Below are positions 3,376 to 37,460 of a stretch of 38,160 bases of DNA, one piece after another. The translations under genes were made by a program, and so were the position numbers. Origin of the DNA: an uncultured Winogradskyella sp. (GTDB taxonomy: Bacteria > Bacteroidota > Bacteroidia > Flavobacteriales > Flavobacteriaceae); assembly GCA_913061495.1 (NCBI GenBank), contig CAJXVG010000007.1, positions 1-38,160 on the forward strand, written 5' to 3'. The notes under the pieces are model-generated. The model made no database searches. It was given only the letters and a program-made list of their open reading frames with translations, and was not told the DNA's origin. Numbering within the stretch: the first letter of the stretch is position 1; each line of letters begins with the position of its first letter.

Positions 3376-3845
3376 ATCACTCGTTTTATCCTCAATATTA
3401 CCAGCAATACCACAGCACCTAAAAAAATACCTCCAACCCACATTAAAAATTTTGCAAATTTCGGGATGTATCTTTCCGGTATCCTAATTGTGTTTCGCTC
3501 CTCAGTTCGTATTTGCCTTAATATTTCAATTTCTTTATCCTGCAATGCTATCTCAAGCAATAATTCGTCATCATGACATTCAGCTTCAATTGTATTTCCA
3601 ACACGTCTCAAGCTCAATCTTAACTTATTAGACTCACGTACAACAGCACGTTCTGTTAAAGCTTCTATTTGCTGACTGATCTTTAATGAGTCTGCAGGAA
3701 CAACCACAAGCGTATCACGTGGAATAATGCGTGTTTTTATAGTTGTGGAATCTGTAACAGTTCTTAAAGTTTCTTTGTGAGGAAATGAAGCACTTTTACA
3801 ACCCACTATACTGAAAAACAGAAATAAAATTAACAGTCGTTTCAT
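3372..3845 (-). CDS. unimolecular spanin candidate (lipoprotein plus TM)
   Basis: A 157-residue protein. Residues 1-15 are a lipoprotein signal peptide with lipobox IVGC (Cys16). Residues 50-125 are charged and probably coiled coil. Residues 132-151 (FLMWVGGIFLGAVVLLVILR) form one membrane segment, followed by a short basic tail (RIKRVI). A lipid anchor at one end and an inner-membrane anchor at the other is the layout of single-protein spanins, which fuse outer and inner membrane at the last step of lysis. The residues after Cys16 (KSAS) lack the acidic export signal of surface lipoproteins, consistent with facing the periplasm. It follows the endolysin gene with a 4-base overlap. Function is inferred from topology and context. 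Confidence 0.68.
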   Translation of the reverse strand: MKRLLILFLFFSIVGCKSASFPHKETLRTVTDSTTIKTRIIPRDTLVVVPADSLKISQQIEALTERAVVRESNKLRLSLRRVGNTIEAECHDDELLLEIALQDKEIEILRQIRTEERNTIRIPERYIPKFAKFLMWVGGIFLGAVVLLVILRIKRVI

Positions 3846-4384
3846 TGCGCTAGTTTTATAAATTCCCTTAACACATTTGCATAGTCATCAATACGACCAC
3901 AAAAAGCACAAGCATCTTGGCTATTGCTACCAAAAAAAGGCTCTACCAATAATGCCGAAGCTTCACATCCTAAAATAAATGTGCCACCGTTTTCCCTGGT
4001 TGATGTTACCGGAATAAGATCTCGTTTCACAATTCCAAACTCATCATGCACCATATCACAATAAAGACCGGCTAAACGCTTTGTATAACGATTGGTAATA
4101 TTGTGCAATGCTGTAACACCATGAGCTCTAGGATCACTAAAGCTGTTAAAGTGAAGTTCTAAAACTAGATTGTAATAATCCTTATTGATTTTATTTACAA
4201 CCTTTCTCAATCTAGACATTTCACTTACAAATAAGGTGTTTGGCCTGTAATAGATATCTGCTACATCCTTGAGCTTCTCAGCAACCTTACTGTTAAATTC
4301 AAATTCGCTCATACCTAACCAAGGAGAGTAAGCTCCTTGCGCTCCACTTCTGTGGCCAACTAATACCGCTACGTTATTGCTCAT
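3842..4384 (-). CDS. N-acetylmuramoyl-L-alanine amidase (endolysin)
   Basis: A 180-residue single-domain protein of the Amidase_3 type. Visible motifs are GHRSGAQGA with the zinc ligand His11, acidic residues at 27-29 as the second ligand, LELHFNS with His78, and the catalytic-type glutamate in LLVEPFFG (Glu148). It cleaves the bond between muramic acid and the peptide stem. No signal peptide is present, so it needs a holin or another exit route; none is recognised beside it. Its stop overlaps the spanin start, giving an endolysin-spanin lysis pair embedded in the baseplate operon. Confidence 0.85.
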   Translation of the reverse strand: MSNNVAVLVGHRSGAQGAYSPWLGMSEFEFNSKVAEKLKDVADIYYRPNTLFVSEMSRLRKVVNKINKDYYNLVLELHFNSFSDPRAHGVTALHNITNRYTKRLAGLYCDMVHDEFGIVKRDLIPVTSTRENGGTFILGCEASALLVEPFFGSNSQDACAFCGRIDDYANVLREFIKLAQ

Positions 4385-5376
4385 AATTTCAACCCTATTT
4401 TGTTTTCCCGGACAAAGCCATCGTTACTATTAAATTTCTTTACAACTCCTTCAATGAGATATTTACCGTCACGCTCACTGTTTTCGTAATTTGGATCAGT
4501 GACCTCAATTGCATCTCCTGCTTTGGTCAATGGCAAACCCCAAGTTGGTATTGTTCCCTGGTACCCATCAAAAGACAAGCTCTTAAAATTGTTCTCGGTC
4601 AATACCTCTAATTCCTTTAAGGACTTATTGGTAAAATGCAGCGTACGTGTTGCACCACCTTTATCTCCAAACTCAGTTCTAAACCTCGTACCGTCTTTAT
4701 TTATAGATATAGCCTTTAACAGCAGTTTGTAATCTTCTTTACGTACAAACTTTAAATCAGTAGAGAGCGCTCTTACATTTCTGTTCATGTTTATCTGGTG
4801 CACAACACCAGGAACGATTGATACTGGAAAGCCTATAACTAAAACACCATCCTTAAACCGACTGTGTAAGCCGTAGTTTTTTCTCAGGTCCTCTAGGACT
4901 TCATAAGCTGAAGCGTTATTAATGACGAATTTGCCAAGACCAACATCATCTATAAGATCTGTTTTATAACCTGGTGCAATCCCAGTAACGAGTTGAGCGA
5001 GACCAATGGAACTGTAAGATTTTACAAAATTAGTTTTGCGAAGCTTGTACATTTCATCTTCACACTCTAACACCAAAGGCACATCAGCACCAATGCTTTT
5101 TATATAGCCTTCAAACTCCGTATTGAGATTATTGTCGTACCCAAGCTCTATCTTTACGGTATCACCAACTTTAATAAAGTCAGTAATATTTCGTCTGGCA
5201 ATAGACTCGGTTCTACCTTCAACAATAGCCTCTTTAAATTCCCTGGGCAAAATCAATGTTGCTGTATCAGAGAGCTTCTTAATACTCTCGTTGACCGTAG
5301 CACTATTGACCCTATCAAAAACCACATTACCAGCTAAAGTGATTCTACAACTCATATTAAAATATAAGTGTATCAT
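4381..5376 (-). CDS. tail hub protein, gpD/Mu gp44-like
   Basis: A 331-residue protein of the late control D / gp44 hub family. It opens with beta-strands around NVVFDRVNSATVNESIKKLS and has FIKVGDTVKIELGYD and FEGYIKSIGADVPLVLECED. A small central domain (GLAQLVTGIAPGY...VLEDLRKNYGLHSRF) is followed by a C-terminal barrel ending GKYLIEGVVKKF. These proteins form the ring on which the spike sits. The ATG at 5376 overlaps the upstream stop as ATGA. An alternative start at Met8 (MSCRITLAG) is possible. It is flanked by a DUF6046-like gene and the amidase gene. Confidence 0.72.
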   Translation of the reverse strand: MIHLYFNMSCRITLAGNVVFDRVNSATVNESIKKLSDTATLILPREFKEAIVEGRTESIARRNITDFIKVGDTVKIELGYDNNLNTEFEGYIKSIGADVPLVLECEDEMYKLRKTNFVKSYSSIGLAQLVTGIAPGYKTDLIDDVGLGKFVINNASAYEVLEDLRKNYGLHSRFKDGVLVIGFPVSIVPGVVHQINMNRNVRALSTDLKFVRKEDYKLLLKAISINKDGTRFRTEFGDKGGATRTLHFTNKSLKELEVLTENNFKSLSFDGYQGTIPTWGLPLTKAGDAIEVTDPNYENSERDGKYLIEGVVKKFNSNDGFVRENKIGLKL

Positions 5377-5981
5377 AGGTTTGGACTTAGTAAGGTGAAA
5401 CCAACAGGCGCAATGCTACTAGCCTCTAATGTAAACTGAATAGTGTCCTCAAAACCTTGCACTCCGTTAACCTCAAAGTTTTTAAAGTAAATACTGTCTA
5501 TATCTTTATCAAAGAACTGTGTACCAATAACATCAACTACGTTGTTGTATTTAAAGAGCTGGTACAAGGCTCTAATTTTATCTTCAGGATAATGGTGTTC
5601 GCTCATGTCAATCAATAAACCTCTTATCCTAATTGACCAGGGTTTCGTACCCCAACGTTCTACAACGATATTTTCACTACCGTTTATTTCTGTTTCTATA
5701 TGCTTTTTAGATTGACTAAAATTGATTAGAGGCGGTGGAGCGATGATGTTTTGGTTAGTTGCTGATTGTCCCGTAACAAAAGGGATTGATCCAAATGTTA
5801 CCTTATTATCTTCAAACTGAAATTCTACATCTTCAAAATCATCGTTTCCTTTACCGTAAAACTCTAAGTTGTAACCATTGGTTTGCTCATTTACAGTAAC
5901 TGCATTTGGTTGGTTAGAACTTGCTAACGATCCAAATGCAGCTTTATATCTCTGAGCTAGTGAAAGTGTTACTAACGTCAT
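5373..5981 (-). CDS. DUF6046-like tail protein
   Basis: A 202-residue protein resembling the DUF6046 group seen in Bacteroidota contractile-tail phages. The features are IVVERWGTKPWSIRIRGLLI, a YPEDKIRALYQLFKYNNVVDV segment and a C-terminal beta-stretch (FTLEASSIAP). By position between tail chaperone and hub it should do the work of Mu gp43 or other LysM-like initiator proteins at the tail tip. Its ATG (5981) overlaps the TGA (5980-5978) of the frameshifted tail chaperone, so its translation is coupled to ribosomes that have shifted frame. Confidence 0.6.
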   Translation of the reverse strand: MTLVTLSLAQRYKAAFGSLASSNQPNAVTVNEQTNGYNLEFYGKGNDDFEDVEFQFEDNKVTFGSIPFVTGQSATNQNIIAPPPLINFSQSKKHIETEINGSENIVVERWGTKPWSIRIRGLLIDMSEHHYPEDKIRALYQLFKYNNVVDVIGTQFFDKDIDSIYFKNFEVNGVQGFEDTIQFTLEASSIAPVGFTLLSPNL

Positions 5982-6513
5982 TCTAATTGCTTTTTTAAGT
6001 TCGACCCTAACACACCTGTGTCAGCGAGATACTTTACTTGTGCCCACTTTAAAGACCATTCTTCATCGGGCAATGCTTCAGGAAAAGGGATATGTAAAAC
6101 GTGCGATATCAAAGCATCAACTTTAAATATCTCATCCTTACCACCCTTAAAGTGAAGACCGGAACAGTCTAAGAGAACTTTTTTATTCTTCCCTCTCCAA
6201 TAGGAATCAACTCAGCAACTAGCGCTACAGTTGTGTTAAACATAAAATCGTCATCTTCAATAACAGCCCTGTTGGTCATTATGCAACCACGGATCAAAAT
6301 CTCTGAAGCTTTCTTAGGATTGGCATCGGACCATTTCATGTATTGCCCTATTACGGTTCTACTAGGTATAATGGCAACAACATCCAAGAATTTACTGTGT
6401 GATTCGTCTTTAGGTATCTCAAGCTGTCTCAGCTTGTCCTTACCGTGCTTGTTGATTAAAGCCTGTACTTCTTCAGAGTACTTTACTTTAGTTCCTTCGT
6501 CTTTTGTATTCAT
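5978..6513 (-). CDS. tail assembly chaperone, -1 frameshift fusion
   Basis: Predicted 178-residue product made by -1 ribosomal frameshifting. Residues 1-112 come from the zero frame (6513-6178). After the slippery site A AAA AAG at 6184-6178 the ribosome enters the -1 frame and adds 66 residues (VLLDCSGLHF ... LGSNLKKQLE), ending at TGA 5980-5978. The -1 frame has no ATG, GTG or TTG start of its own near its beginning, yet its composition is protein-like and its stop overlaps the next gene's ATG. This equals the gpG/gpGT pair of lambda-type tails and the matching pair of Mu-type phages, in which the longer form helps load tail-tube subunits on the tape measure. Confidence 0.8.
6169..6513 (-). 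CDS. tail assembly chaperone, short zero-frame form
   Basis: A 114-residue acidic and helical protein (MNTKDEGTKVKYSEEVQALI ... GEGRIKKFS). It follows the tail tube gene by 12 bases, the standard place for a tail chaperone. The frame stops at TAG (6171-6169) two codons after the slippery AAA AAG lysine pair (Lys111-Lys112). It is the counterpart of lambda gpG and is expected in excess over the fusion form. Confidence 0.75.
   Translation of the reverse strand: MNTKDEGTKVKYSEEVQALINKHGKDKLRQLEIPKDESHSKFLDVVAIIPSRTVIGQYMKWSDANPKKASEILIRGCIMTNRAVIEDDDFMFNTTVALVAELIPIGEGRIKKFS
6178..6199 (-). promoter_or_regulatory. -1 programmed frameshift site
   Basis: The minus strand reads ATA AAA AAG in the zero frame, so the heptamer A AAA AAG (6184-6178) fits X XXY YYZ exactly. 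A purine-rich GGAGAGGGA (6199-6191) lies 6 bases upstream. It resembles the Shine-Dalgarno-like stimulator upstream of the same heptamer in dnaX. A short possible stem (AGAC/GTCT) follows downstream. The reading frames on both sides match a shift at this point. Confidence 0.8.
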
Positions 6514-6525
6514 AGCTTTTAATTA

Positions 6526-6942
6526 TTAATTATTTGAATTGTTATACTCAATACCCAGTACAAAGAATGTGTATTGTTTGTTCAGACCCATATCTCCAGT
6601 AACATCTCTTCCTTGATCCTGAAATTTTAAAAGCAAGGTGTCATTAATGATATCGTTAAATTCATTGACAAATGAAACGTTGACGTAAAAAGGTTTTACA
6701 CTTAATAAATCACCGTCAGCAGCACGCTCTATAGGTGCAATATCATGCATCATAAATGTACCTGAAGCGGTTGGTGTCTTTTTACCCATACTCCAAGATG
6801 TAGCATCAGATTTTAACGTATGGTTCAATTGGTGCTCTTGCTCAGTATTATAGTTAAGCTCAACCATATCTGTTAAGACTCCTGCTATAGTAACTTCAAC
6901 ATCTGCACTATCGTAAGCTTTATTGTTTTTAATTACCGTCAT
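6526..6942 (-). CDS. tail tube protein
   Basis: A 138-residue protein directly after the sheath gene, as in all Mu-like contractile tails. The sequence is beta-rich with a charged loop (LNYNTEQEHQLNHTLKSDA), a central MMHDIAPIERAADGDLL and a terminal strand pair (KQYTFFVLGIEY), in keeping with the gpFII/Mu gp40 tube fold. It forms the rigid inner tube pushed out on sheath contraction. The start overlaps the last base of the sheath gene. Confidence 0.72.
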   Translation of the reverse strand: MTVIKNNKAYDSADVEVTIAGVLTDMVELNYNTEQEHQLNHTLKSDATSWSMGKKTPTASGTFMMHDIAPIERAADGDLLSVKPFYVNVSFVNEFNDIINDTLLLKFQDQGRDVTGDMGLNKQYTFFVLGIEYNNSNN

Positions 6943-8189
6943 TATAAACTTGTTTTTAGGTTAGATGTACCGTTAATTGCGTTGACATTACCATAAGGAA
7001 TGATCTGGAACTTTACCTTCAGTAATTTCTCTACCAAGAGATCACTTTTAGGATCAACAATGGTTTTACCTTCAGTAATCTCCTTACGTCGCTCCATATC
7101 ATCAAGTACAGCGTCACCAAGGTTCTCAAAATGCTTAACCACACCAATCGGCAATAATCCAGTTTTAGGATTAACAGGTTGCTTGGTTTTAACTTTTGGA
7201 AGCAAAGCGGTTCTTAACCTTCTACGTGCTTCATCGTGCGTTCTATTATAAGCTATGGTATGACCATTAATGTTTCCATCATCATCTACAATGATCTCAA
7301 CACAGGTATGGTCATTGTTCCAACGTACTCCGTCCATACCCACATATTCAAAGCCAAAGATGTAACCCTTGTTTTCTAAAGTCTGTAAACTTTCTGCTAC
7401 TTCAGTATTCTTTTTATGGGATGAGAGTCCTGGTATTAACCAAGCATCTTTTGTGGAATCAGTAAGGTTAAACGCTTCATTGTCTCCAATGTTCTGGTTA
7501 ATTGCAGCTGCAGAAAGAGTACCTAAAGCAGTACCGACATCTCCAAACTTCTGGGCATTACCAACAAGGCTGTCAGCATATTTCCAATCCTGGCCATTAA
7601 CGAGTGACACGTTTGGTGCTTTTACGTTTTCAATAGCTCTAAGATTAGCAGCTGCTGCAGAATCAGTACCAAAGTCATAACACTCAAGAATAATTTGCGC
7701 AGGCTTAAATCGTTCGTCGGCCCAATTATACAGACCTTGCGCTTTTGGTATCGACGCAAACACATCGTCTGGCATATTGTTTAACATAACGGTTGCATCA
7801 GTTGGATTAACAGCAATTGCCAATTGCCTAACCTCACCTTTGGCCGTATTAAGCAACAACTTAGCAAACTCAACATCTACATCATCTAAAATGTCTGCCA
7901 TAGAAGTTGCTTGCGGTGCAAGTAACAGGTAGAGTTTCTCTCCTTCACCACGTATCCGATAAAACTCATCAATGTGCCTGTATAGATTAACATTGTTTTC
8001 CGTATCAAACGCAGCGTTAATACCTAATAAATTTGCATCAACACGATTGTAAATTTCCTCTACAACGCTATGCGCTAATTGAGCTGCCGCTGGTGCCGCA
8101 ACAACTAGCCCAGAAACGCCAGTTCCTTCAGCGAGTGCATTGGCACCAACTTTACCTTCTTTTATATCTGCTCCGTCTAAACTTGCCAT
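6942..8189 (-). CDS. contractile tail sheath protein (DUF2586-like)
   Basis: A 415-residue protein matching the DUF2586 sheath group of Bacteroidota phages. The features are an N-terminal arm, a Rossmann-like central region with GEKLYLLLAPQATSMADILD, RQLAIAVNP and AQGLYNWADERFKPAQIILE, the VSLVNGQDWKYADS loop, and the C-terminal polymerising domain GYIFGFEYVGMDGVRWNNDH with DEARRRLRTALLPKV. It contracts to drive the tube through the envelope. It overlaps the upstream gene by one base and the tube gene by one base. Confidence 0.82.
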   Translation of the reverse strand: MASLDGADIKEGKVGANALAEGTGVSGLVVAAPAAAQLAHSVVEEIYNRVDANLLGINAAFDTENNVNLYRHIDEFYRIRGEGEKLYLLLAPQATSMADILDDVDVEFAKLLLNTAKGEVRQLAIAVNPTDATVMLNNMPDDVFASIPKAQGLYNWADERFKPAQIILECYDFGTDSAAAANLRAIENVKAPNVSLVNGQDWKYADSLVGNAQKFGDVGTALGTLSAAAINQNIGDNEAFNLTDSTKDAWLIPGLSSHKKNTEVAESLQTLENKGYIFGFEYVGMDGVRWNNDHTCVEIIVDDDGNINGHTIAYNRTHDEARRRLRTALLPKVKTKQPVNPKTGLLPIGVVKHFENLGDAVLDDMERRKEITEGKTIVDPKSDLLVEKLLKVKFQIIPYGNVNAINGTSNLKTSL

Positions 8190-11443: not shown

Positions 11444-11878
11444 ATGGCAATAACGAATCAAAAGAAGAGAACGCTTGCGGAACGTATGTACATCGATGAT
11501 GGCCATACGGGAAAATACATAGCTGAGTTTCTGGGGGTTTCCGAACAAACAGTTACGCGCTGGAAAAAGGGGCGAAAAGGAGAGGACGATTGGGATACCA
11601 GACGTGCTGAAGTTTTAGCTGCACCTCACAAAATTAAAGAGTTGCTATTAAAACAGCTCAAACTCGTTTCTGAAGGAGAGAAAGCCACTATTGATGCCGA
11701 TGCCTTAGCCAAGATCAGTAAGGTTATGGAAGCCGTTAGCGCCAAAACTAGCGTTCAAGTGGTGCTCAGTGTCTTTAAAGAGTTTGACAACTTTATGGCA
11801 GAGCAAGATCCTGAGACGGCCATAACGTTTCTAAAATGGCACAAAAAATTTATTCTACATAAAGCATCAATGGAGTAA
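11444..11878 (+). CDS. terminase small subunit-like DNA-binding protein
   Basis: A 144-residue protein from ATG 11444. A TTG six codons earlier lies inside the tRNA-like element and is rejected. The N-terminus has a helix-turn-helix (TLAERMYIDDGHTGKYIAEF followed by LGVSEQTVTRWKKGRKG), as in Mu gp27/DUF1804-type small terminase subunits that bind packaging sites. The C-terminal half is helical for oligomerisation. The stop overlaps the large-subunit start (TAATG arrangement), and the pair heads the rightward late operon. Confidence 0.75.
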   Translation: MAITNQKKRTLAERMYIDDGHTGKYIAEFLGVSEQTVTRWKKGRKGEDDWDTRRAEVLAAPHKIKELLLKQLKLVSEGEKATIDADALAKISKVMEAVSAKTSVQVVLSVFKEFDNFMAEQDPETAITFLKWHKKFILHKASME

Positions 11879-13452
11879 TGGTAGATAAGAAGTGGGAGAA
11901 ATATCTAAAGGATTACGAACTGCATTGTAGGCGCATTGAAAAAGCGACGACAATAAAGCTAGGAGAAAGTCCAAAGGATAAGAACGCCAGGATTAAAAAA
12001 CTGGAATCGGATTATGTGGATTGGTTTGAGAATTACATGAACATGTATGCCAAATCCAAGTGCGCTCCGTTTCACAAAAGATTAGCTAACATTCTAATCA
12101 AAAATCCAACGGCAAGTGTCCTTGCAGAAATATACAGATCGGGTGCAAAGTCCGTCCATATTAATTTGGGGATTCCGCTGTATTTGTACTTAGTTAAGAG
12201 AGAGTTGTTTTTCATGCTCTTGGTCGGCCAGACCGATACCAAGGCTAAACGGTTACTGTCCGATATACAGGCGCAGCTCCAGTACAATCAGCGGTTAATC
12301 TCTGATTATGGCAATAGGTTTAAACGTGGCAATTGGGCTGATGGTGATTTTAGTACCATTGATGGAGTAAAGTTCACATCCCTTGGTTTTGGAATGTCAC
12401 CTCGTGGGATCAGGGAACTATCCGAAAGACCAGATTATGTGGTTGTAGATGACATCGATACCAAACAGCGTGTTAAGAACGACTTATTGAGCCGTGAAGC
12501 TGTAGAATGGGTTTGGGAGGACTTACAAGGCACATTTGATGAAGGTTCAAAATTTAGGCGTTTTGTTGTTGCTAATAACAATTTTCATAAAAACACGGTG
12601 ATCAATAAACTCAAGACAGAGTTTAAAAAAATCATTAAGGAAGACAAGGCGCTAGGCGAAAAGGTAGAACATTTTATTGTAACCATTACAGCCGTAAAAG
12701 ACCTGGTCACTTTTGAACCAACATGGCGAGCAAAAACGAGTGCTGCATACTGGAAAAAGAAATACCGAAAGACACCTTACAGGTCTTTCATGCGCGAGTA
12801 CATGCATACGCACATTGTAGATGGAACGCTATTTAAACACGAGCAAATTCGTTATACCAAAGCTTTAAAACTAAGTCAATATGATGCGCTTGTCGTTTAT
12901 GGTGATTTATCTTATAAGGATGCAGGGGATTACAAAGCCATGATGTTAGTTGGTAAAACTAAACGAGACTATCACATTTTAGCGGTCCACAATAGACAGA
13001 CCTCAAGGTCTAACGTAGCAATATGGCTGTACAATCTTTATGAGGATAAGAATTTACGTAAGTATAATATGCGGTTTTGGATCGAGGGCTTATTTGCCCA
13101 GGACGAATTTGTAAACGATTTTGATACCGAAGGAGACACCAGAGGTTATCATATTCCGGTAACGGCTGACAAACGGCCAAAAACCGATAAGCATGATCGT
13201 GTGGAATCCATGACAGGATACTACGAGCGCAATAACATCTTTATTGATGAAAAAATAAAGGACGATCCTGATGTTGTAGAGTATGTAGAACATTTACTGG
13301 CATTTGAAAAAGGCAGCAAGGTACCAGATGACGCTCCCGATTGCCAGCATGGAGCTATCTCTAAATTAAATGCAGCATACCATGTCAATAGATTTGAAAC
13401 ACGCCTAAAACCAAGAAAAGAAGTTATTGCTAATAAAAAGAACAGATACTAA
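11878..13452 (+). CDS. terminase large subunit, Mu gp28-like
   Basis: A 524-residue packaging motor. The ATPase part has a deviant Walker A (YRSGAKS, residues 86-92) and Walker B VVVDDID (188-194), with a coupling region FVVANNNFHKNTV. The RNase-H-like nuclease part starts at VVYGDLSYKDAGDYKAM (Asp343, Asp348, Asp351) and includes the late acidic motif DDAPD (484-488). It cuts and pumps phage DNA into proheads, and in Mu-like phages also cuts flanking host DNA. Directly coupled to the small subunit and followed by the gp36-like gene with a one-base overlap. Confidence 0.87.
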   Translation: MVDKKWEKYLKDYELHCRRIEKATTIKLGESPKDKNARIKKLESDYVDWFENYMNMYAKSKCAPFHKRLANILIKNPTASVLAEIYRSGAKSVHINLGIPLYLYLVKRELFFMLLVGQTDTKAKRLLSDIQAQLQYNQRLISDYGNRFKRGNWADGDFSTIDGVKFTSLGFGMSPRGIRELSERPDYVVVDDIDTKQRVKNDLLSREAVEWVWEDLQGTFDEGSKFRRFVVANNNFHKNTVINKLKTEFKKIIKEDKALGEKVEHFIVTITAVKDLVTFEPTWRAKTSAAYWKKKYRKTPYRSFMREYMHTHIVDGTLFKHEQIRYTKALKLSQYDALVVYGDLSYKDAGDYKAMMLVGKTKRDYHILAVHNRQTSRSNVAIWLYNLYEDKNLRKYNMRFWIEGLFAQDEFVNDFDTEGDTRGYHIPVTADKRPKTDKHDRVESMTGYYERNNIFIDEKIKDDPDVVEYVEHLLAFEKGSKVPDDAPDCQHGAISKLNAAYHVNRFETRLKPRKEVIANKKNRY

Positions 13453-16612: not shown

Positions 16613-18640
16613 ATGAGTGCAAAATCAAAATTACAGCTCATACTGGAGCTAAAAAACAAATTGTTCAACAACAAGTTAACAGCCACTAAACGCAAGTTTA
16701 AGGCTACAACTAAAGGTATGGAGAACAATGTGAGCCGACTTAAAATGAAAACGGTAAGAGGTTTTAAAGCAATGACCTCTGAAGTACCGCTTTTTGGTAG
16801 AGCGTTGTCACTTCTGGGCAATCCCTATACATTGATTGCAGCCGGACTCGTCGCCACCATAGGACTGTTTGGAACTGCAGCCCTAAGAACCAAGGAGTTT
16901 AACCATGAGTTTCTTCAGGTCAAACAGCTTAATCTCGACAAGAACATTAAACAACTCGACGCTTACAAGGGTTTAATTAGAGATAGCGCGTTTGAAACCG
17001 GTAAAAATCTCAACGAAAGCACTAAGGCCTATTATGATATTCAGTCGGCATTAGGGTTTTATGGCAAAAAAGCCGACACTGTATTTAAGCAGGTTGCAAA
17101 GTTCAGCACGGCAACAGGAGCAGAACTAAATGATTCAATAAACGCCACCAGTAAAGCTATTAAAGCTTTTGGGTTAGGTGCAAAAGATACTAAAATGTTA
17201 CTTGAGAGTAATGCTAAAACCGTACAGGTAGGTATTACCACATTTAAGGAGTTGGCTAAGGTGCAAACCGATTATGCAGGTGCCGCAGCTGGAGCAGGAC
17301 AAAAAGTAGATACGGCCAATAAACTCTTTGCCGCATTTACCTCCATAGCCAAGAGCGGAACCGAAGCAGCCACAATGACAAAAACCGCATTGATGGGATT
17401 AACACAAAGTTCTACCATAAAGGGCTTTAAATCCATTGGTGTGGAGATGTACGATATTAATGGCAAAATGCGCGATGTTGACGGTATTTTAAGAGAGGTT
17501 TCCGGCAAGTTTAAAACCATGTCACCAAAAGCTATTGACGAAATCATTAATAAAATTGGTGGTACTGAAGGTCTGCGTGCCTTGCTTACAAAAGTAAAGA
17601 CTGGAGCTGATGACATGTTTAAGACCTTTGATGCCTTTGATGCCTCACAGTTTGATTTAGACAAGGCACTTAAAAATGCCATGGGAGATGTTACCGTTTT
17701 GGGTGGTATTGTAAAAAACAGGTTCAATACCGTTATGGCCAGATTAGGTGAAAAGATTCTACCTACCGTTGCCAGAGCTTTAGAAGGTATGAACAAATTT
17801 ATTACTTGGGTCTATAACAACTTTGGATTGCTAGAAGATATTATTGAGTCCGTTGGTATTGGCTTATTGGCTGGCGTGGCATATTTAGGCTATTTTAAAA
17901 TAGCCGCCATTGCCTCTACAATTTCATCCATTGGATTATCTGGTGCTATTGGTTTGGTAAACCTTGGATTGCATGCCATGAAAGCTGCTATACTTAGCAT
18001 ACCAATTGTGGGTTGGATTATTGCAGCGGTTACGGCATTAGTATTATTATATAAAAAATGGGACTTCTTTAGAGCTTCAGTTGACGCATTGGGTGCAGTA
18101 TTCAAAAGTTTCTTTGTCAATCTATGGGATGGTTTTAAATCTGTTATAAGTGGAATAATTGATGGTTTCAAAGCTATATTTAAGATAGCAGGAGGGCTTA
18201 AAAATCTTGATTTTAGTCAAATGAAAGAAGGTGCGGCAGATTTTATGACCGCACAATCTAAAACTACAGCAGCTGTTATAAAAATGAGTGGTGTAAACCA
18301 TATAAAACAAGCCACTGCTAAAGGTTTAAATGCTTACAGCAAGGTAATGCATAAATCTAAAGGTAAAGAAGAAGACAACAACCTTCTTGGTGAAGACGCT
18401 GGAGCAAACGGAAATGGCTTAGGAACAGGAGATGGGAGTGGACTTGGTAAGCAATTGACCACTGTAACCGGAAAGGCATCTCAACCGCGAAGCATTACCG
18501 TTAATATAGATGCGCTCAACAAAGGTGGTATTAATACCCAAAATACAACGTTGGCCAACATGAACGCCGAGGATATTGAAGCTTGGTTTAATGAAGCTAT
18601 GTTACGTATCATAAGAAATGTAGAACTGAGTGGAAACTAA
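16613..18640 (+). CDS. tail tape measure protein
   Basis: A 675-residue protein with the TP901-type core. An Ala-rich helical N-terminus is followed by MLLESNAKTVQVGITTFKEL, VQTDYAGAAAGAGQKVDTAN and LMGLTQSSTIKGFKSIGVEM. Hydrophobic membrane-like segments lie near 70-90 and 420-495. The C-terminus is Gly-rich and disordered, then TVNIDALNKGG. It sets tail length and may help DNA cross the membrane. Unusually it lies on the strand opposite to sheath, tube and chaperone, about 10 kb from the chaperone. Confidence 0.85.
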   Translation: MSAKSKLQLILELKNKLFNNKLTATKRKFKATTKGMENNVSRLKMKTVRGFKAMTSEVPLFGRALSLLGNPYTLIAAGLVATIGLFGTAALRTKEFNHEFLQVKQLNLDKNIKQLDAYKGLIRDSAFETGKNLNESTKAYYDIQSALGFYGKKADTVFKQVAKFSTATGAELNDSINATSKAIKAFGLGAKDTKMLLESNAKTVQVGITTFKELAKVQTDYAGAAAGAGQKVDTANKLFAAFTSIAKSGTEAATMTKTALMGLTQSSTIKGFKSIGVEMYDINGKMRDVDGILREVSGKFKTMSPKAIDEIINKIGGTEGLRALLTKVKTGADDMFKTFDAFDASQFDLDKALKNAMGDVTVLGGIVKNRFNTVMARLGEKILPTVARALEGMNKFITWVYNNFGLLEDIIESVGIGLLAGVAYLGYFKIAAIASTISSIGLSGAIGLVNLGLHAMKAAILSIPIVGWIIAAVTALVLLYKKWDFFRASVDALGAVFKSFFVNLWDGFKSVISGIIDGFKAIFKIAGGLKNLDFSQMKEGAADFMTAQSKTTAAVIKMSGVNHIKQATAKGLNAYSKVMHKSKGKEEDNNLLGEDAGANGNGLGTGDGSGLGKQLTTVTGKASQPRSITVNIDALNKGGINTQNTTLANMNAEDIEAWFNEAMLRIIRNVELSGN

Positions 18641-35188: not shown

Positions 35189-36421
35189 ATGACTGATATA
35201 AATGTAGACGTACTTATAATAGGTGCAGGTCCTTCAGGATGTGTCGCTGCAGCTTATCTTCATAAAAAAGGGATTAATGTTAAAGTGGTTGAAAAAAATG
35301 AATTTCCTCGTTTTGTAATAGGCGAAAGTTTACTGCCAAGATGTATGGATCATTTTGAAGAAGTTGATTTATTGGATTGTCTTATTTCAAAAGGTTTTGA
35401 AGTAAAGAAAGGAGCGAGATTTATTAGGAAAGATACCGTATGCGAATTTGATTTTAGCAAAAAACATACAGATGGTTATAACTGGACATGGCAGGCACCA
35501 CGTGCGGATTTTGATAAAACATTAACGGATGAATTAGAACAAAGAGGTATAGATATTTCATTTAAACACGAAGTTTTGGATGTTCAATTCATTAAAGATG
35601 GGACTTCTATATCAACTGTGAAATTGAGCAATGATTATCATTATAAAATAAAAGCTAAGTTTATAATTGATGCCAGTGGTTTTGGAAGGGTTTTACCAAG
35701 ATTATTAAACCTAGATAAGCCTTCTAAAATACCACAACATTCATCTATTTTCAGTCACGTTAAAGATGTTAACCGCCCAAAAGGTAGAGAAGGTACGTTG
35801 ATTACTTTTGATGTTATTGATAAAGATTGTTGGTTGTGGGTTATTCCATTTTCTAATGGAAACACAAGTATTGGATATGTCTGTACAACTGACTTTTTAA
35901 ATCGTTTTAAAGGTAGTGCTACAGAAATATTACAAGAGATGCTCAAGCTTTCTGATTATTACTACGAACGCTTCAAAGAAATGGACTTTTTATTTAAGCC
36001 GGTCATTATAAGAAACCATTCTAAGTCTGTAAAGCAACTTTACGGAAACGGTTATGTGCTAACTGGAAACAGTGCAGAATTCCTAGATCCTGTTTTCTCT
36101 TCAGGAGTAACATTTGCAACTGAGTCAGGTCTTTTAGCAGCCAAGTTAATTGCCAAAGCTTTGAATGGTGAGGTGGTTGATTGGGATACTTCATATTCCA
36201 ATTACATCAAAGAAGGAGTTACAGTTTTTGGGACTTATGTTAAAGAATGGTACACTGGTAATTTACAGACCATATTTTTTGAAGGAGAAACAAATCCAGA
36301 AATTAAAAAACAAATATGTGCTGTTTTAGCAGGTTATGTCTGGGATAAATCAAATCCTTTTGTTAAAAATCATAACCGACTGCTACCCACTTTGGCTCAC
36401 GTAATTAGGATGGGAGTTTAA
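35189..36421 (+). CDS. flavin-dependent oxidoreductase/halogenase-like
   Basis: A 410-residue FAD enzyme. The dinucleotide motif is GAGPSG (12-17). GESLLPR (44-50), then GFEVKKGARF with Lys72/Lys73 and CWLWVIP (213-219), are close to the flavin-dependent halogenase pattern (GxxxxP, catalytic Lys, WxWxIP). GNSAEFLDPVFSSGV (from 292) is typical of this group. It could halogenate or hydroxylate the aromatic head of the pigment; some flexirubins are chlorinated. A plain FAD monooxygenase is the alternative. Divergent from the ammonia-lyase across a 111-base regulatory gap. Confidence 0.8.
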   Translation: MTDINVDVLIIGAGPSGCVAAAYLHKKGINVKVVEKNEFPRFVIGESLLPRCMDHFEEVDLLDCLISKGFEVKKGARFIRKDTVCEFDFSKKHTDGYNWTWQAPRADFDKTLTDELEQRGIDISFKHEVLDVQFIKDGTSISTVKLSNDYHYKIKAKFIIDASGFGRVLPRLLNLDKPSKIPQHSSIFSHVKDVNRPKGREGTLITFDVIDKDCWLWVIPFSNGNTSIGYVCTTDFLNRFKGSATEILQEMLKLSDYYYERFKEMDFLFKPVIIRNHSKSVKQLYGNGYVLTGNSAEFLDPVFSSGVTFATESGLLAAKLIAKALNGEVVDWDTSYSNYIKEGVTVFGTYVKEWYTGNLQTIFFEGETNPEIKKQICAVLAGYVWDKSNPFVKNHNRLLPTLAHVIRMGV

Positions 36422-36509: not shown

Positions 36510-37460
36510 ATGAATCCAACTAAAATAACTCAACTTCTCAAAATTAAATATCCTATAATACAAGCACCAATGTTTTTGGTCTCTAATGTTGCTATGGTTA
36601 CTGAAGCAATGAAAGCTGGTATAGCAGGTTGCATACCTGCATTAAATTACAGAACACTTGAGGAATTAAGAGCTGCGGCAAAAGAGTTAAAAGCAAATAA
36701 AGTTGAAGGTGGTTCATTTGGTTTTAACTTAATCGTTAATAAATCTAACATAAAATACAGAGGTCAACTTGAGGTTCTGTGTGAAGAAGGTTGTGATTTT
36801 ATTATAACTTCTTTAGGAAGTCCTGAGGAAACTATAAAGCAAGCTCATGCTGCTGGCATTAAAGTGTTTTGCGATGTGACAGACTTGAGATTTGCCAAGA
36901 AAGTAGAACAATTGGGTGCTGATGCAGCAATTGCTGTAAATAGTGAAGCTGGTGGTCACCGTGGAAATCTATCACCGCAAGAATTAACTTCATTATTGAA
37001 CAAGGAATTAAATATTCCGGTGATTTCAGCAGGTGGAGTAGGTTGTAAAGCAGATATAGATAAAATGTTGAGTTATGGAGCAGAAGGAGTTTCCGTAGGA
37101 AGCCCATTTATAGCTTCGGTTGAAGCAAGTGTAACTGATGAGTACAAACAAGCTTGTGTAGATTATGGAGCAGATGATATCATTATGACCGAACGTATTT
37201 CTGGTACTCCTTGCACAGTAATTAATACACCATATGTTAAAAAAATAGGCACTAAAGCTACGTGGATAGAAAATCTTTTGAATAAAAACCGAACCCTAAA
37301 GAAATGGGTGAAAATGATTCGGTTTTCAATTGGTATGAAAGCTACTGAAAAAGCAGCAAAAAAAGCGACATATAAAACTGTTTGGGTTGCTGGCCCAAGT
37401 ATAGAACATACTAACGCTATTTTACCTGTTAAGGATATTGTAGCCAACTTAACTGTATAA
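36510..37460 (+). CDS. nitronate monooxygenase-like FMN enzyme
   Basis: A 316-residue TIM-barrel flavoprotein of the nitronate monooxygenase / FabK family. YPIIQAPMFLVSN sits at the N-terminus. SEAGGHRG (145-152) contains the catalytic His150, and ISAGGVG plus YGAEGVSVGSPFIAS form the FMN phosphate site. It may oxidise alkyl nitronates or act as an enoyl reductase. It is read separately from the pigment genes and probably controlled through the palindrome upstream. Confidence 0.85.
   Translation: MNPTKITQLLKIKYPIIQAPMFLVSNVAMVTEAMKAGIAGCIPALNYRTLEELRAAAKELKANKVEGGSFGFNLIVNKSNIKYRGQLEVLCEEGCDFIITSLGSPEETIKQAHAAGIKVFCDVTDLRFAKKVEQLGADAAIAVNSEAGGHRGNLSPQELTSLLNKELNIPVISAGGVGCKADIDKMLSYGAEGVSVGSPFIASVEASVTDEYKQACVDYGADDIIMTERISGTPCTVINTPYVKKIGTKATWIENLLNKNRTLKKWVKMIRFSIGMKATEKAAKKATYKTVWVAGPSIEHTNAILPVKDIVANLTV

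Follow-up and report, generated by a model that had tools for sequence, protein, structure and literature searches.

The window analysed here, a stretch of 38,160 nucleotides (nt) from an uncultured Winogradskyella sp. (assembly GCA_913061495.1, contig CAJXVG010000007.1), carries on its minus strand a gene at 6513–5978 which very probably encodes the tail assembly chaperone of a Mu-like prophage with a contractile tail and yields its long form by frameshifting. A first-pass annotation, made from the sequence alone and without giving the strand, had proposed a programmed frameshift at this place. The zero-frame open reading frame (ORF; 6169–6513, minus strand) translates to 114 amino acids (aa) and would be the short, gpG-like chaperone. 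Its 3' end reads GGA GAG GGA AGA ATA AAA AAG TTC TCT TAG; the slippery heptamer A_AAA_AAG lies in the zero frame at 6178–6184 (minus strand), and the stop codon TAG (6171–6169) comes two codons past it, just as had been described for ATA AAA AAG. The -1 frame opens at 6211 and ends with TGA at 5980–5978; entered at the heptamer it gives a gpT-like extension of 66 residues plus the TGA (5978–6178, minus strand) and a fusion of 178 aa, and it holds no ATG, GTG or TTG up to the conserved core, in agreement with the earlier description of 66 codons without a start of their own. The next ORF starts at 5981, so that it overlaps the stop of the extension in the tetranucleotide ATGA, and the ATG overlap noted before is correct.

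Relatives of the gene were sought in several collections. Against 50,697 phage records the fusion gave a single tblastn match, Flavobacterium phage fF4 (45.1% identity over 83%), and viral contigs searched with the short ORF alone gave no match. Scans of viral contigs with a two-sequence alignment yielded 11 loci and those with an alignment of the extension 72, to which genome scans added more. Queries also included the extension (A4) and the short part (A5) each by itself, so that these searches did not presuppose the frame relation. The 144 loci examined comprise 90 distinct pairs of N-terminal (N) and C-terminal (C) parts, 35 duplicates and 19 loci that were set aside: 12 with the short form only (five places each fetched twice, L118 and L133), four with both parts in one frame (L127–L130), L036 (without a match), L204 (also -1, lost to the distance filter) and L210 (at the end of a contig). 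Judged by eye, L118 has A_AAA_AAG and a -1 extension. The pair filter removes in-frame fusions with an open frame of more than 400 bases, and the four fused loci therefore belong beside the 90 pairs in any count.

The extension lies in the -1 frame in all 90 distinct pairs, and a canonical heptamer falls within the frame overlap, as in the window, in 77 of them, compared with 19.1 ± 3.6 expected and a highest value of 31 in 1000 redraws of synonymous codons. The first 24 pairs alone held a heptamer in 19 cases, whereas 2000 such redraws averaged 5.0 and never exceeded 12. The loci are kin, and thus the 90 pairs do not count as 90 independent events. By class the heptamers are G_GGA_AAG (25 pairs), A_AAA_AAC (25), A_AAA_AAG (19) and other canonical forms (8). 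Between heptamer and zero-frame stop there is a single codon at 24 of 25 A_AAA_AAC sites; the same holds for 18 of 19 sites with A_AAA_AAG, the odd one out being the window, where there are two. It had been suggested from the outset that homologues be searched for the same two-frame split, and that homologues lacking the extension, the heptamer or conservation at the protein level would speak against a frameshift. What was found are relatives that keep the -1 extension as a protein, most of them together with a heptamer, apart from 13 non-canonical pairs, the four fused loci and the short-only places; a programmed -1 frameshift giving a long tail chaperone is supported.

The extension of the window is 48–63% identical to those of nine relatives, and the short part 35–55%. 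Eight pairs gave ratios of non-synonymous to synonymous substitution (dN/dS) between 0 and 0.22 for the extension, with synonymous changes near saturation between the window and L004. Judged by these substitution patterns, the extension is under purifying selection. An AlphaFold2 (AF2) model of it is helical and of moderate confidence (predicted local distance difference test, pLDDT, 72). In five of the seven pairs that allowed both to be computed (L005/L006, L007/L012, L003/L015, L008/L011 and L005/L007), the extension has diverged less at synonymous sites than the short part has.

The identity of the gene as a tail chaperone is drawn from fold, position and two-frame design taken together. 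The AF2 model of the short form (pLDDT 83.6) has as its top three Foldseek matches in the PDB 3fgx (E 7.7e-4), 2ob9 (E 0.41) and 3klu (E 0.41), of which 3fgx alone is significant. In VIA-align, where a Z score below 8 can reflect a mere common arrangement, these three score 10.0, 6.3 and 6.0 and the next match 4.6. 2ob9 is the HK97 tail assembly chaperone, and 3fgx and 3klu we take to be tail assembly chaperones as well. A chaperone fold of the N domain is therefore supported at the level of a predicted model. One unnamed match in a viral structure library passes E 0.001, and entries named tail assembly chaperone begin there at E 0.087; a sequence search of the PDB with both profiles gave only matches of E 0.28 and 0.36. 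The short form of the window matches PHROG 19076, a family without an assigned function, weakly (E 0.0017), and all 10 members of alignment A3 match it at E 0.01, one of them matching a minor tail protein family as well. PHROG 19076 is probably the tail assembly chaperone in its short form.

The chaperone gene sits in a tail module, directly after a probable tail tube gene (6526–6942, minus strand), which is so assigned by gene order only, from its position after the sheath gene, its lone PHROG match being phrog_9206, named major head protein. The contractile tail sheath gene lies at 6942–8189 (minus strand; phrog_907 tail sheath, Pfam DUF2586), and the next gene after the extension encodes a baseplate hub protein (5373–5981, minus strand; phrog_5233, DUF6046). 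The tape measure gene (16613–18640, plus strand) matches 15 tape measure families, best phrog_28, and PhageMin_Tail; it is grouped with the terminase, portal and minor head genes on the strand opposite the sheath, chaperone and baseplate genes. The window also holds transposase and transposition protein genes, which bear out the earlier view of a Mu-like phage. As in fF4-like (Winoviridae) transposable phages, there is a transposase and the genes are split between the strands: those for capsid, sheath, chaperone and baseplate lie together on one, and the other carries those for terminase, portal or structural proteins, and tape measure. This likeness is one of gene content and layout.

Phage fF4 itself (MN850656, listed under Winoviridae) resembles the window in gene order, in its DDE transposase, in its -1 extension and in having the tape measure gene on the other strand with the terminase and further structural genes. 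It differs in having G_GGA_AAG at the junction, aligned three codons further upstream than the heptamer of the window, and its public record splits the chaperone halves into two coding sequences, both called hypothetical proteins. In that record the extension is QHJ72924.1 (L003 8321–8464), 47 residues from an internal ATG, with its first part cut off. Flavobacterium names among the relatives point to a host within the Bacteroidota.

From the frames and the heptamer we infer that the slippage is ribosomal and by -1; a +2 shift leads into the same frame. Most ribosomes would stop at TAG (6171–6169) and release the 114-aa short chaperone, while a minority would slip back one base on A_AAA_AAG, tRNA-Lys(UUU) in the P and A sites re-pairing with AAA, and read 66 further codons to give the 178-aa long form. 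Their roles may resemble those of lambda gpG/gpGT: the N domain common to both would bind the tape measure protein, the C extension would recruit the tail tube subunit, and the ratio of short to long form would matter for tail assembly. The long form is expected to be the minority product, and frameshifting of 6% and 7% is reported for two chaperone genes of another cluster (PMC3711429). One lysine tRNA, with the anticodon UUU, was found in the host among 31 tRNA matches (150 of 287 first-look candidates scored), and no tRNA genes were found in the window. Should it be the sole lysine tRNA, both slippery codons would be read by the tRNA behind the efficiency of A_AAA_AAG, which in Escherichia coli is attributed to the shiftiness of tRNA-Lys(UUU) (PMC4066793). 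Candidate stimulators in the window are a short downstream hairpin and an upstream stretch resembling a Shine-Dalgarno (SD) sequence; both or neither may act.

Several observations weigh against a frameshifted tail chaperone. The sole fold match with Z above 8 is 3fgx, the title of which names no function, the fusion has no match in Pfam at E 1, and neither half has one in NCBIfam at 0.01. The tape measure gene does not adjoin the chaperone gene, a departure from the common order which we did not count as defining. Among the relatives, 13 of the 90 pairs lack a canonical heptamer in the overlap and have runs such as GAA AAG or GGG GAA, N and C stand in one frame at four loci, and the short form occurs alone at several places. 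The host tRNA list is incomplete (tRNA-Asp and tRNA-Ile were also unfound), so that a tRNA-Lys(CUU) is possible.

The loci with both parts in one frame have a pattern of their own. In one genus, four genomes have one gene like the short chaperone and, apart from it, another that joins N and C in a single frame (L127–L130 with L120–L123), the two lying approximately 8–16 kb apart in the three genomes that have both on one contig; in L211, the one read further, they are at 3526–3870 and 11513–11983 (minus strand). Apparently, two separate genes stand in place of the frameshift in that genus.

The downstream hairpin of the window is a predicted stem-loop of six pairs (AGACTG TTC CGGTCT, 6156–6170, minus strand; -4.8 kcal/mol), which begins 7 nt past the heptamer and takes in the last two bases of the zero-frame stop. 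It is weak by comparison with synonymous redraws (z -1.1). The three nearest relatives have different hairpins, 7–8 nt past the heptamer and at -8.2 to -12.0 kcal/mol. In the 50 nt right after the heptamer, A_AAA_AAC sites have a mean folding energy of -18.5 kcal/mol, compared with -5.4 to -10.7 kcal/mol at other offsets and -12.1 at the overlapping +10 offset; A_AAA_AAG sites peak at -11.7 kcal/mol (other offsets -4.6 to -10.3), and G_GGA_AAG sites show no peak (-9.2). Values of z below -2 against synonymous redraws were obtained for 20/25 A_AAA_AAC, 4/19 A_AAA_AAG, 2/25 G_GGA_AAG, 3/8 other canonical and 2/13 non-canonical sites. No match to Rfam at gathering scores was found in the window.

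The A_AAA_AAC loci (L026, L035 and L175–L203; 25 loci) mostly have a strong predicted hairpin from 7–8 nt past the heptamer, the signal being missing in five (L177, L179, L182, L186 and L203). In an alignment of the 17 of these 25 sites that could be aligned without gaps, the outer helix has eight pairs, five of them with compensatory changes, and 89.7% of its cells are paired (68.6% in the inner helix). The covariation score is 0.270, compared with 0.159 in shuffled alignments (reached by 0 of 500) and 0.019–0.159 with slid partners, and the cells paired and the cells changed on both sides also exceed all 500 shuffles. Two sterner measures do not rise clear of the shuffles, with six pairs changed on both sides versus 3.6 (reached by 43 of 500 shuffles) and 13 further pair types versus 11.7 (reached by 129 of 500), and the covariation term of RNAalifold on the same rows is just -0.45.

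The other candidate stimulator is the purine-rich, SD-like stretch GGAGAGGGA at 6190–6198 (minus strand). Such a stretch had been noted in the first-pass annotation six bases upstream of the heptamer and likened to the stimulator of dnaX; it is indeed present, but ends five bases before the heptamer, with its GGAG ending 10 bases 5' of it. A signal of this type, by which the window would owe its frameshift to base-pairing between GGAGAGGGA and the anti-SD of the elongating ribosome, seems to us unlikely, though it has evidence on its side. The predicted pairing energy of -6.9 kcal/mol is a local outlier, matched by no control window of the ORF, and in the clade of four to which the window belongs the energies are -6.9, -4.3, -6.8 and -4.9. 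The A_AAA_AAG class as a whole has a mean of -3.7, compared with -1.4 in controls. SD motifs, counted by the rule of PMC4066793 and with the slip positions of the 13 non-canonical sites assumed, occur at 6/19 A_AAA_AAG sites, where about 2.9 are expected; they occur at 4/25 A_AAA_AAC sites, at 0/25 G_GGA_AAG sites and at 16 of all 90, compared with 0.149 x 90 = 13.4 expected. As counts over all classes are near expectation, there is no general SD, and what is seen is a mild excess in the class of the window. The relative of highest identity, L004, has GGTCAGGGTCGT in place of GGAGAGGGA. A conserved peptide is encoded by the same stretch, and this may be enough to favour purines there.

The use of SD pairing by the host bears on the same question. 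The anti-SD of Bacteroidia ribosomes is reported to be occluded, and the prfB gene of Flavobacterium johnsoniae to have a perfect SD-like element, at which the authors hold pairing to be critical (PMC8710568); the prfB element is termed hyper-conserved elsewhere (PMC12421855). The F. johnsoniae element would favour a role for GGAGAGGGA, and so does the 16S 3' end with the anti-SD CACCTCC (pattern GGANCACC), matched in 11 of 31 assemblies of the host genus; an earlier pattern, GGCTGGATCACC, was wrong for this group (0/60 genus genomes matched), and no 16S was found in the assembly of the window itself. Against such a role, all 31 prfB sites read in the host genus, including that of the window's own genome, are without an SD-like element, and the pattern with the SD matched 0/31. 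The host-genus prfB frameshift site has apparently lost its SD. The slip core pattern of prfB matched in 58/60 genomes and the same pattern read backwards in 22/60; because backwards matches are so frequent, only the 31 sites with the upstream peptide read were taken as prfB. At these 31 starts (L081 and L083–L112) the +1 slip core TATCTTTGAC is kept, and the SD-like AGGGGG/AGGAGG is replaced by AGACAA (20), AGACAG (5), AGGCAG (5) or AGGCAA (1). For the dnaX-like stimulator, then, the local outlier and the clade energies stand, while enrichment over the 90 sites is absent and host prfB lacks the element; we lean against an SD role upstream of the heptamer.

Transcriptional slippage on the A run as the source of the long form is very improbable. 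The window site has six consecutive A, which is short for bacterial transcriptional slippage, and all 25 G_GGA_AAG pairs, with runs of at most three at the heptamer, have the same -1 architecture. It is scarcely credible that the extension is a separate gene, expressed from its own start or by reinitiation. The fF4 record annotates it from an internal ATG, and 14/90 pairs have GTG or TTG in the stretch between the point where the extension frame opens and the core, or 15 codons past the slip; ATG is absent from that stretch in all 90 pairs, the window has none of the three before the core, and residues common to the window and fF4 precede the annotated ATG of the latter. An assembly error or decayed gene, for which we found nothing beyond the 301 contigs of the source assembly, has a negligible probability given that the frame relation holds in 90/90 pairs and that, in those pairs for which selection was measured, it is purifying for both halves. 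A chance origin of frames and heptamer was rejected, the 77/90 heptamers standing against 19.1 expected and the extension being under purifying selection.

For the ribosomal frameshift, the relatives also give a view of how its signal has evolved. When the 90 fusions are placed on a quick tree, their heptamer classes cluster by clade and need 16 changes on the best tree; starred branches force only one to four heptamer changes for each class, and 23 of the 87 inner branches are open. The window groups with L004, L139 and L146, all A_AAA_AAG (Shimodaira–Hasegawa-like approximate likelihood ratio test 96). A test of heptamer against hairpin by independent pairs had just one usable pair on starred branches and five on all branches. 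Since the heptamer classes follow clades and independent pairs are few, the association of heptamer and hairpin is not causal evidence. It is quite possible, and we put it forward tentatively, that the chaperone frameshift persists while its signal is exchanged, selection holding the ratio of products and not the signal. One clade would rely on the strong heptamer G_GGA_AAG, without a stimulator that could be seen; another would combine A_AAA_AAC, a weak heptamer in E. coli, with a strong 3' hairpin that has some compensatory changes; and the clade of the window would stand between them, with A_AAA_AAG, short hairpins in the same place but of differing sequence, and moderate SD-like stretches. 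Such an exchange would have taken place in a phage family whose known hosts hardly use SD pairing. Within the finding, the greater interest lies in the exchange of heptamers and in the strong hairpin of the A_AAA_AAC clade.

Frameshifted tail assembly chaperones of long-tailed phages were reportedly described by Xu, Hendrix and Duda in 2004. They are ordinary for tailed phages, and the gene of the window is a new case, in a family that has no name in the libraries searched. G_GGA_AAG, which one clade here uses, is lambda's own heptamer. It is reported to be highly shift-prone in E. coli, and in lambda a single gene likewise yields two chaperone forms, short gpG and long gpGT, through a -1 frameshift near its end (PMC5009743). 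The window shares with that system a chaperone-like fold and the adjoining probable tube gene; it differs in its lack of a Pfam or NCBIfam match, its contractile tail, its tape measure gene on the other strand and its A_AAA_AAG, with several other heptamers in relatives. Phage P2 has a contractile tail and a -1 shift, and keeps its tape measure gene near the chaperone gene. The P2 frameshift in the chaperone gene (E/E+E') is alike by description only, and Mu, like the window with its transposase and transposition protein genes, is a transposable phage with a frameshifted chaperone, but is reported to use a -2 shift (PMC5009743), whereas 90/90 pairs here fit -1.

All three parts of the E. coli dnaX frameshift signal can be drawn in the window: the exact heptamer A_AAA_AAG, an SD-like stretch upstream of it and a hairpin downstream. 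The gene is a different one, however, the SD is not general among relatives, the hairpin has six pairs, and in the window the shifted product is the longer one.

Among the papers listed by the literature searches, judged by title and opening of the abstract, no work on a frameshifted chaperone in Flavobacterium or Bacteroides phages was found. The results suggest a function for the unnamed phage family PHROG 19076, and the public fF4 record illustrates that annotation can split such a chaperone. The relatives also provide naturally varied frameshift signals from a lineage in which ribosomes reportedly hide the anti-SD, and in which the roles of heptamer, SD and 3' structure are open to direct testing.

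Near the end of the window, on the plus strand, lie a gene resembling FAD-dependent halogenases or reductases (35189–36421) and a FabK-like gene (36510–37460), both below the curated cut-offs shown. These are perhaps host flank or cargo.
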